Position numbers and translations under genes: made by a program. The notes below the pieces were generated by a model. That model made no database searches. It was given only the letters and a program-made list of their open reading frames with translations, and was not told the origin of the DNA. A stretch of DNA of 59,464 bases. Origin: Thermotoga sp. Its GTDB lineage: Bacteria > Thermotogota > Thermotogae > Mesoaciditogales > Mesoaciditogaceae. The first letter of the stretch is position 1, and every line of letters starts with the position of its first letter. Shown piece by piece: positions 37,359 to 45,699 of this stretch. Location of the stretch: NCBI GenBank assembly GCA_020722015.1, contig DYLQ01000009.1, positions 1-59,464 on the forward strand, written 5' to 3'.

Positions 37359-38402
37359 TCACAGATTCGTTGGCTCTTTTGCGTATAGCAAAGCATCGCT
37401 TCGCTTTATCTTGTTTAAAGATATGGCACGTTTTAGAGCCTCATCAAAGGTTATCATTCCAAATTTTCCTCCTGTTTCTATCATTGAATCAATCTGATGC
37501 AATTTGTTTTCACGTATTAAATTCCTTACAGCCACGGTACCGATAAGAATCTCTACTATTGGTACGTAGCCTTTTCCATTCGCAGACGGCAGGAGTCTTT
37601 GATATGCCACTCCTACTAACGTGTTTGAAAGTTGAATGGCTACCTGCTTTTGTTGATGCTCAGGAAAAACATCTATTATTCTTTCCGGAGCAGATCCAGC
37701 CGAATTTGTATGTATGGTTGAAAATACAAGGTGACCAGTCTCGGCAGCCGTAAGCGCGAGTTTCATCGTGTCTATATCCCTCATTTCTCCTACGAGTATG
37801 ACATCCGGATCTTGCCTCAGTGCGTATTTCAAACCATCCGCAAATGAATCGGTGTCATTCCCAAGTTGCCTTTGATGCATTAAAGCCTGTTTGCTTTGAA
37901 AAACGTATTCAATAGGATCTTCTATTGTTATTATATGAACGGGTCTTTCTTTATTTATTTTATCGATCATAGCGGCAAGTGTGGTAGATTTTCCGCTTCC
38001 GGTAGGACCTGCTATCAAAACTATGCCACTTACATGATTGGCGAAATCGGCAAGAACCTGCGGTAGTCCTAACTCTGAGAAATTTCTTATTTTGTAGGTT
38101 ATTATCCTGAAAGCACCTGCCCAATTTCCCCTTTCAAGGAAAACATTTGCCCTTACTCTGGCTACATCTTTGAGGCTGAATGAGAAATCGATCTCTTTTT
38201 TGTTTAAAGGCATATTCAAAGATTTGAGCAGATCGATCAAAAGTTTTGAGAGTTCTTCGCTTGCGTAAGGTTCATATTTTACTTGGGGAACAAGATCACC
38301 GTATATCCTAAAAATAGGCGACGTATCCGCACTTAAATGAACATCGGATGCGTTCATGTTGTAACCTTCTAACAGTAATTCCATTATATCCAATGCTTTC
38401 AT
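37359..38402 (-). CDS. pilT: twitching motility ATPase PilT
   Basis: Hexameric retraction ATPase for type IV pili. N-terminal NASDVHLSAD, Walker A GPTGSGKST, Asp box ITIEDPIEYVF, Walker B VILVGEMRD, and the His box STIHTNSA are present. The PilT-type C-terminal AIRNLIRENK equivalent reads AVRNLIRENK. The ATG at 38402 after GGAGG gives 347 residues; the longer ORF from 38429 lacks a good site. pilB is 8 kb away on the other strand. Confidence 0.95.
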   Translation of the reverse strand: MKALDIMELLLEGYNMNASDVHLSADTSPIFRIYGDLVPQVKYEPYASEELSKLLIDLLKSLNMPLNKKEIDFSFSLKDVARVRANVFLERGNWAGAFRIITYKIRNFSELGLPQVLADFANHVSGIVLIAGPTGSGKSTTLAAMIDKINKERPVHIITIEDPIEYVFQSKQALMHQRQLGNDTDSFADGLKYALRQDPDVILVGEMRDIDTMKLALTAAETGHLVFSTIHTNSAGSAPERIIDVFPEHQQKQVAIQLSNTLVGVAYQRLLPSANGKGYVPIVEILIGTVAVRNLIRENKLHQIDSMIETGGKFGMITFDEALKRAISLNKIKRSDALLYAKEPTNL

Positions 38403-38430
38403 GTTGACCTCCATAAAAATATTCTTCAAA

Positions 38431-38455: not shown

Positions 38456-39085
38456 GTGATACCAGTGTCGGTAGTAGAAAGTTACAAAGAATCTCTCATG
38501 AAAATGGGAATTCTCGTCGTAGACTTGTTTGATAAGTCTATATATGCGCTTATCAACAGAGATTCCGATATGGCAAAAAAAGTCATATCAGATGATAAAT
38601 TAGCAGATGAAATGAGAAACAAGATCGTCGAAGATGGAACTTTGATCATAGGGGAGTATGCTCCGATAGGAAGATCTCTCGTTCAAATAACAAATGGAAT
38701 GTGGATTGCAAATGTGCTTGAAATGATAGGAGATAGCTCCAAAAAAATTTCTTATCATACGATAGAATTGGCAAAAGAACCCATACTTAAACCGCTTGTG
38801 GATCTTCCCAAGATGGCATCCGTAGCGGAAGGAATGTTAAGGAAAAGTATGACTTTCTATACCTCAAGTGTCAATGAAGGGATCATCGATGAGTTGATGG
38901 AAAACGAAGTTGAAGTTGACGATCTTTCAGAGAGAATTGAAGATGAACTTAAACTTTACATGATGGAATCACCCAAAAATGTGTCAAGGGCTTTAAGGCT
39001 TATCATGATTTCCAAATCCATAGAAGAGGTTACCGATTTTTGTCTTAAGATAGCTTCCCTTCAATTAAATGGAGGTGTTGTTTGA
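38456..39085 (+). CDS. PhoU-like helical protein
   Basis: A 209-residue all-helical cytoplasmic protein resembling PhoU: paired three-helix bundles with acidic patches such as EVEVDDLSERIEDELKLYMM and EMIGDSSKKISY. Classical PhoU controls phosphate uptake with PstB and PhoR, but no phosphate transport genes are here. Start is GTG shortly after GGGTG. Its stop overlaps the next TTG start, coupling it to the LptF-LptD fusion. A regulatory role for that transport system is possible but unproven. Confidence 0.8.
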   Translation: MIPVSVVESYKESLMKMGILVVDLFDKSIYALINRDSDMAKKVISDDKLADEMRNKIVEDGTLIIGEYAPIGRSLVQITNGMWIANVLEMIGDSSKKISYHTIELAKEPILKPLVDLPKMASVAEGMLRKSMTFYTSSVNEGIIDELMENEVEVDDLSERIEDELKLYMMESPKNVSRALRLIMISKSIEEVTDFCLKIASLQLNGGVV

Positions 39086-42000
39086 AAACACTTTACAAAT
39101 ATGTCGCTAAAGAATTTATTTTTCCTTTTTTTGCAGGACTTGTAGTTTTCATAATTTTTGTCAGCATAGAAGTTTTGTATCAACTTTCCGATATCATCGT
39201 GCAAAATCATGTGGGTATATTGAATCTTTTCGTATTGCTTTATTATTACATACCACAGTTCATAGGTATGGGTGTACCTGTCGGTGTTTTGCTTGCGATC
39301 TTCTGGGTGCTCTCAAATTTCTCAACAAGAAGAGAAATGATGGCGTTTCAAGTGCATGGTATAAATTTAAAGCGCATCGTCATTCCCTTTTTGATCATAG
39401 CGGTTGTGTTAAGCGGATTAACCTATCTTATTACCAATTACGTGGTTCCGTCTTTTACGGAACAAGCCTCAAATTATCTTCAAAAATCCGTTTATCGTTC
39501 AAACTTTCCCAACATACAGACTAATACTTTTTTTAGAGCAGGAAATGATTACTTTTATGTAAGCAGTTTTGATCCCAAGACTGAACAATTCGGATCGGTT
39601 ATGATAACCAATCTGTCAGGAAATGAATTAACCGTAACCTATGCCCAGAGTGCTTATTTCAAAGATGGAAAATGGTACCTGCAAAATGGCAGAATTTACA
39701 CGCTCAAAAATGACGTTCTAACTTTTGATATGTCTTTTAACACCATGAAATTGAATATAAATGAAGATATAGTTCAATTTTTGAGATCTCAAAAAAGCGC
39801 CCAGGAAATGAGCTCGTCAGAATTGATGCAAAGGATAAAACTGTTTCAAAGGCTTGGTCTTGATGCTAAATCTTTCATCGTTGAACTTTATTCAAGGTAT
39901 GCCAACTCCCTTGGTGCTCTTATAATAGCCTTTTTTGGAGTCCCATTTTCTTTGTTTTTCGGGATAAAAAGCAAAGCCTGGAGTGCTATAATAACTTTTG
40001 TCCTTGTCGTGCTTTATCAGGGATCCGGGGCATGGTTGAGCGCCATGGGAAAGAGCGGCATGATAGAACCGGTACTTTCTGCCTGGCTGCCAGATATAAT
40101 TTTTGCGATTGTAGGACTTATCTTTTTCTTATTACTTGACAGCAAGATAATCTTCAAACTTAAGGAATTTCTCGTTAGAATTTTACCCTTTGCCATAATC
40201 ATACTTGCTTTTGGTATTTTTTCAGGCCATGCATTTGGCGCCGAACCGCTCAAGGTAAGTGCAGGGGAGCTGCGGATAATTTCTGCAACAGAAGTTGAGT
40301 ATACAGGAGGAGTCCAATTAAGTTCATCTCAATATACGATTTCTGCGTCGAGTGTGAACATCTTTTTCAACGATCAAAGGTATGCCATTAAGGCCGTTTT
40401 TTTTGGCAATGTCGTTTATATCCAAGGTAAAAACACGATATATGCTTCAGAAATGACGGTGTTTCTCAACGAACATACGTCGTTACTTACGAATTTAAGA
40501 GGCAGCGTGAGTATAAAAAATTCACAGGGGACTCCGCAAAATGTTTATTTTTTTGGAGCAAATTCCATTTATGATACTCAAAGTGGAACCACAACAATGT
40601 ATAACGGTTACATAACAACCTGTACGGCAAGTCCTCCGCATTACGAACTTGCAGCCTCGAAGATATACCTCGTACCAAATGATCATCTGATAGCATACAA
40701 CATAGTCATGTACATTCTGGGAATTCCCGTTTTTTATTTTCCACAGTATTATTATTCTTTAGCAGGTGGAAAGCAACCAATGCAATTTTCGATAAACTAT
40801 GCGGGATCTCAAGGTTGGTATACAGCTGCCCAATTCAATTTTCAACCTTCTCAAAATTTCGGCGGAGACGTTTACGCTAACAATTATACCAATGGCCCTT
40901 CAACGTACGGCATCGATCTTGCCGGAACTGCTCTTAACGTTCCTTACACTTTTTCTTATTCAAATTCTCAGACTGCCGGCCTCATAACATCTCAACTCGT
41001 TCAATTCGGAGTTTCTGGAACACTTTTTAACCTTTACAACGCGGCCTTCGGCTATCAAGATCAAATAACGGGAAATTCATCAAGTCAAAATTCAAATCTT
41101 TCCATCTCTGGAAATGTGCTCGGGGGAAGCATGAGTGCAAAATTGACTCAAACTGTTTCTGGTACGAATCAAAGTTATACGCTGCCATATCAGATTCAAA
41201 ATCTTAACACCAAAATAGGTCCGATTAGCTTTACAGGTAATCTCAATGGCAACAGTAGTTTTTCAATTCCGGGAAATGCTTTTTCAACGTCCAATTCATT
41301 ATCAGGTAATTTTTCATGGCCCCTTAAATTTTTGACTTTGAATTCGATAACCGGATCTTATTCGGATTCTTTTGGAGCCGGAACAGGACAGCCTATTTCT
41401 TATTCGACCTTTATAGACGCAACTTACGCTTTTAATGCTCTTAATTATGATTTTTATGGACTTGGCCTCAACTTTTCATATGGAACTATGACTGGATTCG
41501 CACTTTCAAGTTCTAATGCCCAGCCTGCTGACAGAATAGCATTGCTTACAAATACGAAATTATCTTACAATCTTTTTGGATTGGGTTTATCGGCACTTTA
41601 CAATTACACGGAAGTCATAGGGCAAAACCTTTCCACCTTCAGTAACAACAGCTTTCAAAACACGCTTGGATTAACAGCGAACTATACTTTCCCCTTAATT
41701 CCTTTAAGTGCACAGGGACAGGTAACTTATGACTTTAACAATCCAACTTCTCCGCTGTCAAATATAACGCTTACAACTGCATCGAACTTCAATCTTCTTG
41801 GTGTGAAAAACGTCTTGAACACAAGTTCGATAATATCGCCTGCTTTGAAACCCATTAATACGCAAGTAACCTTGAATTCCCAATATGGAGGTCTTTCTTA
41901 CCAAGGTCAAACGCTTTACACATACGGTACCAATTACACATCGAATTCACCTTTAACTTTGGCAAATCAGATTACGGCAAATGTTGGAAATTTGGGTTTC

Positions 42001-42336
42001 ATAACGAATCTTAATCTTTCTTCACAGTTTTCAATGAACATTTTTCCAAATCCATCTTTTGTATGGCCAGTGCCAATAACCCTCTCGGCAAACGTTCCCG
42101 CTTTGAATCTTGGGATATCGGCTCAGGGAAATATATCAAATTGGCAAGTTCAATCAATGACCTTGAATTTCACGACAGGATCTCAATGTCTTGGCCTTAA
42201 AGGTACGATTGCTTTTAACACCCAAAACGGTTTTAATTTTTCTCAATTCACTTTGACTGTGTTCATAGTTCAATTCCCTGAAAAGTCAATCTCTTACGAT
42301 CCGGTAACGGGCAATTTCAACTTTTCTATCTTTTAA
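39082..42336 (+). CDS. LptF/LptG permease fused to OstA/LptD-like outer-membrane barrel
   Basis: A single 1084-residue frame. Residues 1-365 are a YjgP/YjgQ (LptF/G) permease: helices near 15-35, 55-78, 98-122, three more at about 275-360, and a periplasmic beta domain between. Residues about 366-387 form a basic-hydrophobic segment ending AFGA-EP that looks like a signal peptide. An OstA jelly-roll follows (388-510), then LptD-like TTCTASPPHYELAASKI and GIPVFYFPQYY (547-557), then about 520 residues rich in alternating aromatic/polar strands typical of a barrel. Start is TTG after GGAGG, overlapping the PhoU-like stop. No internal ribosome site with a start codon precedes the second part. 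It should export a lipid or glycolipid to the outer envelope; the cargo is unknown. Confidence 0.85.
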   Translation: MKTLYKYVAKEFIFPFFAGLVVFIIFVSIEVLYQLSDIIVQNHVGILNLFVLLYYYIPQFIGMGVPVGVLLAIFWVLSNFSTRREMMAFQVHGINLKRIVIPFLIIAVVLSGLTYLITNYVVPSFTEQASNYLQKSVYRSNFPNIQTNTFFRAGNDYFYVSSFDPKTEQFGSVMITNLSGNELTVTYAQSAYFKDGKWYLQNGRIYTLKNDVLTFDMSFNTMKLNINEDIVQFLRSQKSAQEMSSSELMQRIKLFQRLGLDAKSFIVELYSRYANSLGALIIAFFGVPFSLFFGIKSKAWSAIITFVLVVLYQGSGAWLSAMGKSGMIEPVLSAWLPDIIFAIVGLIFFLLLDSKIIFKLKEFLVRILPFAIIILAFGIFSGHAFGAEPLKVSAGELRIISATEVEYTGGVQLSSSQYTISASSVNIFFNDQRYAIKAVFFGNVVYIQGKNTIYASEMTVFLNEHTSLLTNLRGSVSIKNSQGTPQNVYFFGANSIYDTQSGTTTMYNGYITTCTASPPHYELAASKIYLVPNDHLIAYNIVMYILGIPVFYFPQYYYSLAGGKQPMQFSINYAGSQGWYTAAQFNFQPSQNFGGDVYANNYTNGPSTYGIDLAGTALNVPYTFSYSNSQTAGLITSQLVQFGVSGTLFNLYNAAFGYQDQITGNSSSQNSNLSISGNVLGGSMSAKLTQTVSGTNQSYTLPYQIQNLNTKIGPISFTGNLNGNSSFSIPGNAFSTSNSLSGNFSWPLKFLTLNSITGSYSDSFGAGTGQPISYSTFIDATYAFNALNYDFYGLGLNFSYGTMTGFALSSSNAQPADRIALLTNTKLSYNLFGLGLSALYNYTEVIGQNLSTFSNNSFQNTLGLTANYTFPLIPLSAQGQVTYDFNNPTSPLSNITLTTASNFNLLGVKNVLNTSSIISPALKPINTQVTLNSQYGGLSYQGQTLYTYGTNYTSNSPLTLANQITANVGNLGFITNLNLSSQFSMNIFPNPSFVWPVPITLSANVPALNLGISAQGNISNWQVQSMTLNFTTGSQCLGLKGTIAFNTQNGFNFSQFTLTVFIVQFPEKSISYDPVTGNFNFSIF

Positions 42337-44368: not shown

Positions 44369-44403
44369 CTGTAAAACTCCACAAAAGGGAGGTGCCCTAT
44401 TTT

Positions 44404-45699
44404 ATGGTTAAAGTAGGGGGATTTACGGTAGTTGATATAGGTTCCTATAACATAAAAGCGGCATTTGGTGAAAAAACAGCGGATGGATTCAAAATCCTTA
44501 GTTATTCCACTGTTAAATCGAATGGCTTTTATGGAGGTCAGATAATAGACGCAGTTGGCCTTAGAGCGAGCGTAGGTGAAGCACTTGGAGAACTTCAAAC
44601 TCAGTTGATGAAGAAGTCCTTAAGTGGCCATCTTGCCGTTACCGCTTCTGAAAATCTTTTTTCTCTTGAATTATCCAAAGTGATCAAAGATTTAGGAAGG
44701 CCTGAAGTTATATCAAATGCCCGAATTCAAGAAATAAGAAATGAAGCCGTAAAAAGTCAAGATATCGTTGATGTGATACCTGTAAGATATACCCTTGATG
44801 GAGAGAGGAAGGTTATAAATCCTATTTCCATGACCACGTCAAAGATATCGGCAGATGTTGTAAAGGTTAAAATGGATCGATTTCCCCAAAATGAGTTGAT
44901 GAATCTTTTCCAAGGTTACCCTTTTGATTTGATTAACATCATGCATCCAGGATTGATCGCATCTGAAGGTGTGCTGACTGAAAACGAAAAAAACAGAGGG
45001 ATAATCTGCCTTGATTTCGGATATTCCACCTTTAAGCTGACGGCTTACATGGATGGAATGCCAATAGGATATAAGTTTATTCCGCTTGGAGTAGAAAAGA
45101 TCATCAAAGACATAGCGACTATTTTCAAAGTTTCATATCCCGAAGCAGAAAGACTGCTCTTTTACCATTCAAATCTTGATTATGAAAAGTTAAACGAAAA
45201 TGAAATGGTGGAAATAGTTGATTTCAGCAAGGCCAAGAAAAATGTCAAAAAAAGATCCATATCAATGGCTGCATATGCAAGAGCTAAAGAAATGTTGAGC
45301 CTTTCAAGACGGAGTTTTAACGAAATAATGAATGCAAATCCATCTTTTAATCCCATTGGTATCGTCATAACAGGTGGAGGTGCTTCAATACCAGGCATAT
45401 CAACAGTCGCAGGGACAATTTTCAACATGGTTTCGAGGAATGGAACTTACATTTCTTCAAATAACGTTATAGTCACAGGTGCTGAAGATATAATGGGAGT
45501 CTCTGTTTATGGTCCATTATTTGGCGCCTACATTTACACTTACAAGTATGGAAAATTGGAGACTGCCAAATCGGGTGCTTTTACGACTCCGTCGCCAACA
45601 ACGCAACAACCTGTAACCGTTGAAAAGGCAATTGGTGAGAAAGTGCAGTCTGACAGTTCGTTGAAAAAATTATGGGATTTTCTCAAGAAATTGGTATGA
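44404..45699 (+). CDS. ftsA: cell division protein FtsA
   Basis: Actin-like membrane anchor for FtsZ. Phosphate motifs VVDIGSYNIKAA and ICLDFGYSTFKLT, the adenosine motif IVITGGGASIPG, and an inserted 1C-type subdomain (about 85-165) are seen. The C-terminus is an amphipathic helix (SLKKLWDFLKKLV) that binds membrane, joined by a Thr/Pro-rich linker. The ATG at 44404 is chosen; the GTG at 44392 lies in the ribosome site GGGAGGTG. It has 431 residues and is followed by ftsZ. Confidence 0.92.
   Translation: MVKVGGFTVVDIGSYNIKAAFGEKTADGFKILSYSTVKSNGFYGGQIIDAVGLRASVGEALGELQTQLMKKSLSGHLAVTASENLFSLELSKVIKDLGRPEVISNARIQEIRNEAVKSQDIVDVIPVRYTLDGERKVINPISMTTSKISADVVKVKMDRFPQNELMNLFQGYPFDLINIMHPGLIASEGVLTENEKNRGIICLDFGYSTFKLTAYMDGMPIGYKFIPLGVEKIIKDIATIFKVSYPEAERLLFYHSNLDYEKLNENEMVEIVDFSKAKKNVKKRSISMAAYARAKEMLSLSRRSFNEIMNANPSFNPIGIVITGGGASIPGISTVAGTIFNMVSRNGTYISSNNVIVTGAEDIMGVSVYGPLFGAYIYTYKYGKLETAKSGAFTTPSPTTQQPVTVEKAIGEKVQSDSSLKKLWDFLKKLV

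Follow-up and report, generated by a model that had tools for sequence, protein, structure and literature searches.

A gene joining an LptF/LptG permease, an internal signal-peptide-like segment and an LptD-like protein in Thermotogota: a probable phylum-wide Lpt polyprotein

The window, the whole 59,464-nucleotide stretch of DNA analysed here, contains a single frame of 1084 codons with no internal stop, which encodes an LptF/LptG permease followed by an OstA/LptD-like protein (Table 1). The first-pass annotation had read this continuous frame and both of its assignments from the letters, and HMM searches of the two halves agreed, placing Pfam LptF_LptG in the first and LptD_N/OstA in the second. 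The permease match is nearly complete, spanning positions 1–351 of the 353 in the Pfam profile, and the permease also matches the solved chains of LptG (E 2.1e-10) and LptF. A PhoU-like ORF lies directly upstream here and in at least 43 of the 61 loci with enough upstream sequence. The overlap of this ORF with the fusion gene was confirmed in the window, and it is from the overlap that we infer the translational coupling proposed earlier for the two genes.

Table 1. Coordinates of the fusion gene, its predicted parts and its neighbors in the window.
Feature	Coordinates	Strand	Residues and remarks
PilT-like ATPase gene and PilM/FtsA-like gene (presumed)	37359-38429 and 44392-45699		flanking region; translations read by eye
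PhoU-like gene	38456..39085	+	PF01895 E 1.3e-27; 4-nt overlap with start of fusion gene
LptF/G - signal peptide - LptD gene, complete	39082..42336	+	TTG start, 1084 aa
LptF/LptG permease domain	39097..40128	+	residues 6-349; PF03739 E 1.6e-78
Basic cytoplasmic tail, KIIFKLKEFLVR region	40138..40179	+	residues 353-366; permease end and predicted signal-peptide n-region
Hydrophobic core	40180..40221	+	residues 367-380
c-region SGHAFG	40222..40239	+	residues 381-386; G386 directly precedes the predicted signal peptidase I cut
Mature LptD half, predicted	40240..42333	+	698 aa; similar to solved LptD in a profile built from 32 relatives
OstA / LptD_N domain	40390..40602	+	residues 437-507; PF03968 E 3.8e-6, above curated cut-off
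C514 (mature C128), TTC motif	40621..40623	+	aligns with E. coli LptD C173
FYFPQYYYSL motif	40732..40761	+	counterpart of LptD FYSPYLQL
Presumed LptD-type beta-barrel	40795..42333	+	residues 572-1084, last residue Phe; beta-strand periodicity
C1036 (mature C650)	42187..42189	+	candidate disulfide partner of C514

Similarity of the C-terminal half to LptD extends beyond the OstA domain. A profile built from 32 diverse mature halves hits the solved LptD structures 8h1r (E 8.3e-9) and 7omm (E 6.9e-7); both matches take in the TTC and FYxP motifs, and that to 8h1r covers profile positions 4–299, reaching into the start of the barrel. Alignment to E. coli LptD with hhalign (E 4.7e-7) set mature C128 on C173, and the NCBIfam LptD model matches residues 388–554 with an E value of 4e-8, although this match falls short of that model's whole-protein cut-off. 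C128 and C650, the sole cysteines of the mature half in the window, are conserved in 32/32 and 28/32 relatives, respectively, and this conservation across most of the phylum suggests a structural disulfide. E. coli LptD forms non-consecutive cysteine pairs (C31, C173, C724, C725), and a comparable bond between C514 and C1036, the second cysteine having been matched by eye, is plausible. In one family (f6, e.g., loci L078, L079, and L085) the LptD half is about 1040–1080 residues long, roughly 350 more than that of the window, and carries an additional segment immediately before the second cysteine.

Past mature residue 185, the window's protein shows a two-residue beta-periodicity with a z score of 5.8 relative to shuffled sequences (median 4.3 for the 32 sequences), compared with 3.0 for the barrel of E. 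coli LptD and −0.5 for the permease, and the last residue across relatives is mostly Phe or Met. Given the LptD homology near the barrel start, the conserved cysteine pair and the beta-periodicity, the C-terminal half likely forms an LptD-type barrel, as the first-pass annotation had proposed. The Pfam model of the 26-strand LptD barrel (PF04453) tells against that proposal, having matched nothing in any of the 103 Thermotogota genomes searched. This negative result would fit a different protein, a periplasmic, beta-rich OstA protein that is not an LptD pore, as would the lack of any hhalign alignment between the C-terminal block and E. coli LptD and the mean pLDDT of 30.7 in an AF2 model of the LptD half computed from only 4 closely similar sequences. 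Such a protein would not be expected to match solved LptD past the OstA domain, to carry LptD-like TTC and FYxP motifs with a conserved distant cysteine, to equal or exceed the beta-periodicity of the E. coli barrel or to end mostly in Phe or Met, and we consider this reading distinctly unlikely.

The fusion is the prevailing form in the phylum. LptF/G was present in 100 of the 103 Thermotogota genomes searched, and in 87 of these 100, tallied by hand from the search table, it is held in a single frame of at least 1000 aa, the longest being about 1490 aa. The fused copy is normally the sole LptF/G of its genome, as it is in the window's genome, and only one of the 100 (G005) has two intact copies. 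Among the 13 genomes without a frame of this length, several are interrupted by contig ends, and two, G053 and G005, encode genuinely split LptF/G and LptD, so that the survey of fused and split forms suggested by the first-pass annotation finds both. Frames are broken in G040 (L051) and G093, and the LptD half of G043 (L052) contains an in-frame stop; these interruptions may be real or due to errors in the sequence. That annotation had also raised a sequencing error as a possible source of the fusion. A sequencing or assembly artefact was ruled out by the occurrence of the fusion in 87 genomes, including single-contig assemblies and the complete chromosome of Athalassotoga saccharophila, and we give it next to no weight. 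A tree of the permease follows the families and nests the split form of G053 among fused forms, from which it appears that the fusion is probably ancestral to Thermotogota and the splits derived; the pair from G005 sits on long branches, and its placement in this tree is unsure.

The split genomes help to place the joint between the two proteins. In LptF/G proteins the sixth helix is followed by a cytoplasmic C-terminus, so a hydrophobic segment beyond it must take the chain outwards. The stand-alone permeases of G053 and G005, like E. coli LptF, terminate at the basic tail, ahead of the hydrophobic segment, which indicates that this segment belongs to LptD. In G053, the permease ends at a TGA within GGATGATACCATG, and the separate LptD starts a few nucleotides on, at an ATG there, with its own signal peptide, MHLRYKSFSPVLFIISLFFIILSGTKVFSA, which includes an extra basic n-region absent from the fused relatives. 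A start codon of its own and this additional n-region speak against a simple frameshift. In G005 (L044, L106, L129), the permeases form a tandem LptF/LptG pair, and an LptD with its own signal peptide lies on another contig, preceded by a terminator-like hairpin that was seen by eye. The same genome also contains a 621-aa ORF that begins like a signal peptide and has repeated OstA domains; it could be an LptA bridge of unusual length.

In the window, the junction reads KIIFKLKEFLVR-ILPFAIIILAFGIF-SGHAFG/AEPLK, with the slash at the predicted cut. The signal-peptide-like character noted for this segment in the first-pass annotation proved to be conserved in an alignment of 57 fused proteins, the columns of which we number by window residues. 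Across these proteins, the basic tail is followed by a hydrophobic core of about 10–15 residues, a c-region rich in S, T, P, and G, and then the first beta strand. Column 366 is K or R in 96% and column 359 in 93% of the proteins, while column 386, corresponding to G386, is A, G, S, T, or C in 98% (S in 22, G in 18, and A in 14). The −3/−1 rule of signal peptidase sites is satisfied by 52 of the 57 proteins and not by the other 5; as a control, conserved small residues within the permease helices also satisfy it, which means that the rule lacks specificity when used on its own. Column 386 is instead marked out by conservation of residue class without identity, being one of only two columns, with 107, at which A, G, and S each make up about a quarter or more while the A/G/S class reaches at least 95%. 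The hydrophobic segment is at least as long as the transmembrane segments of the permease itself, and its length therefore cannot tell a signal peptide from a transmembrane helix.

Two separate products could also arise if the second half were translated from an internal start or released by a protease other than signal peptidase. Some ATG, GTG, or TTG codon does fall within the aligned region in 50 of the 57 fused genes, but these codons do not fall in a conserved column (at most 16/57 genes share one), and the c-region typical of a signal peptide is conserved. In the window itself, the last in-frame candidate is at residue 327 and none occurs from 328 to 400, in keeping with the earlier remark that no start codon with a ribosome site precedes the second part. 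Internal initiation was rejected on these grounds, and taken together with cleavage by another protease it seems to us highly improbable.

The interchangeable A, G, and S at the −1 position within a signal-peptide pattern, the position of the joint at the end of the permease and the existence of split forms all favor a polyprotein. We consider it probable, with good confidence for a proposal drawn from sequence comparison, that Thermotogota possess a phylum-wide Lpt polyprotein composed of a single LptF/G permease, an internal signal peptide and an LptD released by signal peptidase I, and that in nearly all members the permease and the pore are made together and then separated. In this scheme, the N-terminal half would insert in the inner membrane as a single LptF/G permease, presumably acting as a homodimer with LptB, and the basic tail of the permease would double as the n-region of the LptD signal peptide. 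Export of the C-terminal half would be initiated by the internal signal peptide, with signal peptidase I cutting after about residue 386, near AFG/AEPLK. BAM would then place the freed LptD in the outer membrane, to receive lipid brought by a separate LptA-like bridge. Because one reading frame encodes both halves, permease and pore would be produced 1:1 from one reading. More speculatively, the hydrophobic segment remaining after the cut may be kept by the permease, giving it a seventh helix that perhaps takes the place of the LptC anchor.

The first-pass annotation had offered, besides a polyprotein cut by signal peptidase, a chain that physically bridges the two membranes; the comparative evidence speaks for the former, and the latter found little support. 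If the chain were left uncut, the hydrophobic segment would take the role of LptC as a transmembrane helix, the seventh in the chain, and a single polypeptide would run from the inner membrane across the periplasm to the outer membrane. Several observations are consistent with such an arrangement: in hydrophobicity the segment equals the helices of the permease itself, only 19 of the 103 genomes contain a recognisable LptC (for the most part within short OstA ORFs), and a transenvelope MlaD of Veillonella parvula has been proposed to bridge the envelope as one chain ending in an outer-membrane barrel (PMC10665443). In two genomes (G006 and G007; loci L045 and L046), moreover, a Pro/Thr-rich insert of about 45 residues, absent elsewhere, lies right after the predicted cut site and could serve as a linker. 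An uncut chain, however, would not need the conserved signal-peptidase pattern, and with just a few residues between the segment and the OstA domain in most members, it would have a single short beta domain with which to span the periplasm. Since, in addition, a separate LptA-like protein is kept and the split genomes encode a free LptD, we regard an uncut chain as unlikely, and we would be slow to credit its use as a one-polypeptide lipid conduit in which the seventh helix and the first beta domain replace LptC.

Several genes with which a cleaved polyprotein would cooperate are present. The window's genome encodes one LptB (284.7 bits against an equivalog cut-off of 240), an LptA-like OstA ORF of 216 aa with a signal peptide, and signal peptidase I, and no second LptD was found in it. 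Omp85 of the BamA type was detected in 88 of the 103 Thermotogota genomes; the search gave no match in the window's own genome, though close relatives do match. LpxC was found in 0 of the 103 genomes and LpxB never reached its cut-off in any of them, which upholds the earlier statement that Thermotogota are generally thought to lack classical LPS. The phylum-wide absence of both enzymes indicates that the cargo is not ordinary lipid A, and classical lipid A is very unlikely as the substrate; in place of classical LPS, the system would carry another lipid of the outer membrane, most probably a glycolipid. Thermotogota are described in the literature as incapable of LPS synthesis (PMC5007114), and a glycolipid cargo has been proposed for diderms that lack LPS, T. 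maritima being among those named (PMC10353723). The latter article cites Putker 2015 as the source for T. maritima Lpt orthologues. One survey describes Thermotogae as lacking nearly all outer-membrane genes except bamA, and nearly all Lpt genes (PMC8871954).

Compared with known systems, the fusion gene is a form of the Lpt system and not a separate type of system. It shares with the proteobacterial machinery (LptB2FG-C-A-DE) the LptF/G permease, the LptB ATPase, the LptA/OstA bridge and an LptD with OstA domain and FYxP and Cys motifs. It differs in that proteobacterial LptF and LptG are two proteins and LptD is separate, whereas Thermotogota have one permease fused to LptD, no recognised LptC in most genomes and no lipid A genes. 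The LptF-LptG heterodimer of two paralogues has no counterpart in the window's genome, where the permease is single-copy. The cytochrome b-c1 polyprotein encoded by Bradyrhizobium fbcH likewise joins a polytopic membrane protein to an exported protein via an internal signal peptide; other proteins and another pathway are involved there, and the Thermotogota fusion is conserved across a phylum. Single LptF/G copies have been reported in diderm Firmicutes (PMC5007114), so a single copy is compatible with the wider LptF/LptG family. The LPS-lacking diderms Borrelia, Treponema, and Thermus similarly have Lpt parts without LPS, with glycolipid cargo proposed (PMC10353723), but LptF, LptG, and LptD of Borrelia are separate genes, unlike the Thermotogota fusion. 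The Veillonella MlaD resembles the fusion in placing an inner-membrane transporter and an outer-membrane barrel in one coding frame; its helical span of about 150 residues belongs to a proposed single chain (PMC10665443), whereas no long span is present in the Thermotogota protein, which has a signal-peptide-like cut site instead. No description of the fusion was found in the literature searched.

Thermotogota thus retain a set of permease, pore, bridge and ATPase in which permease and pore are locked in one gene. With this set found in a phylum without LPS, the cargo of an LPS-free outer membrane becomes a direct experimental question. If the proposed cleavage is true, the gene would represent a rare phylum-wide bacterial polyprotein split by signal peptidase, one that would enforce equal synthesis of an inner-membrane component and its outer-membrane partner.
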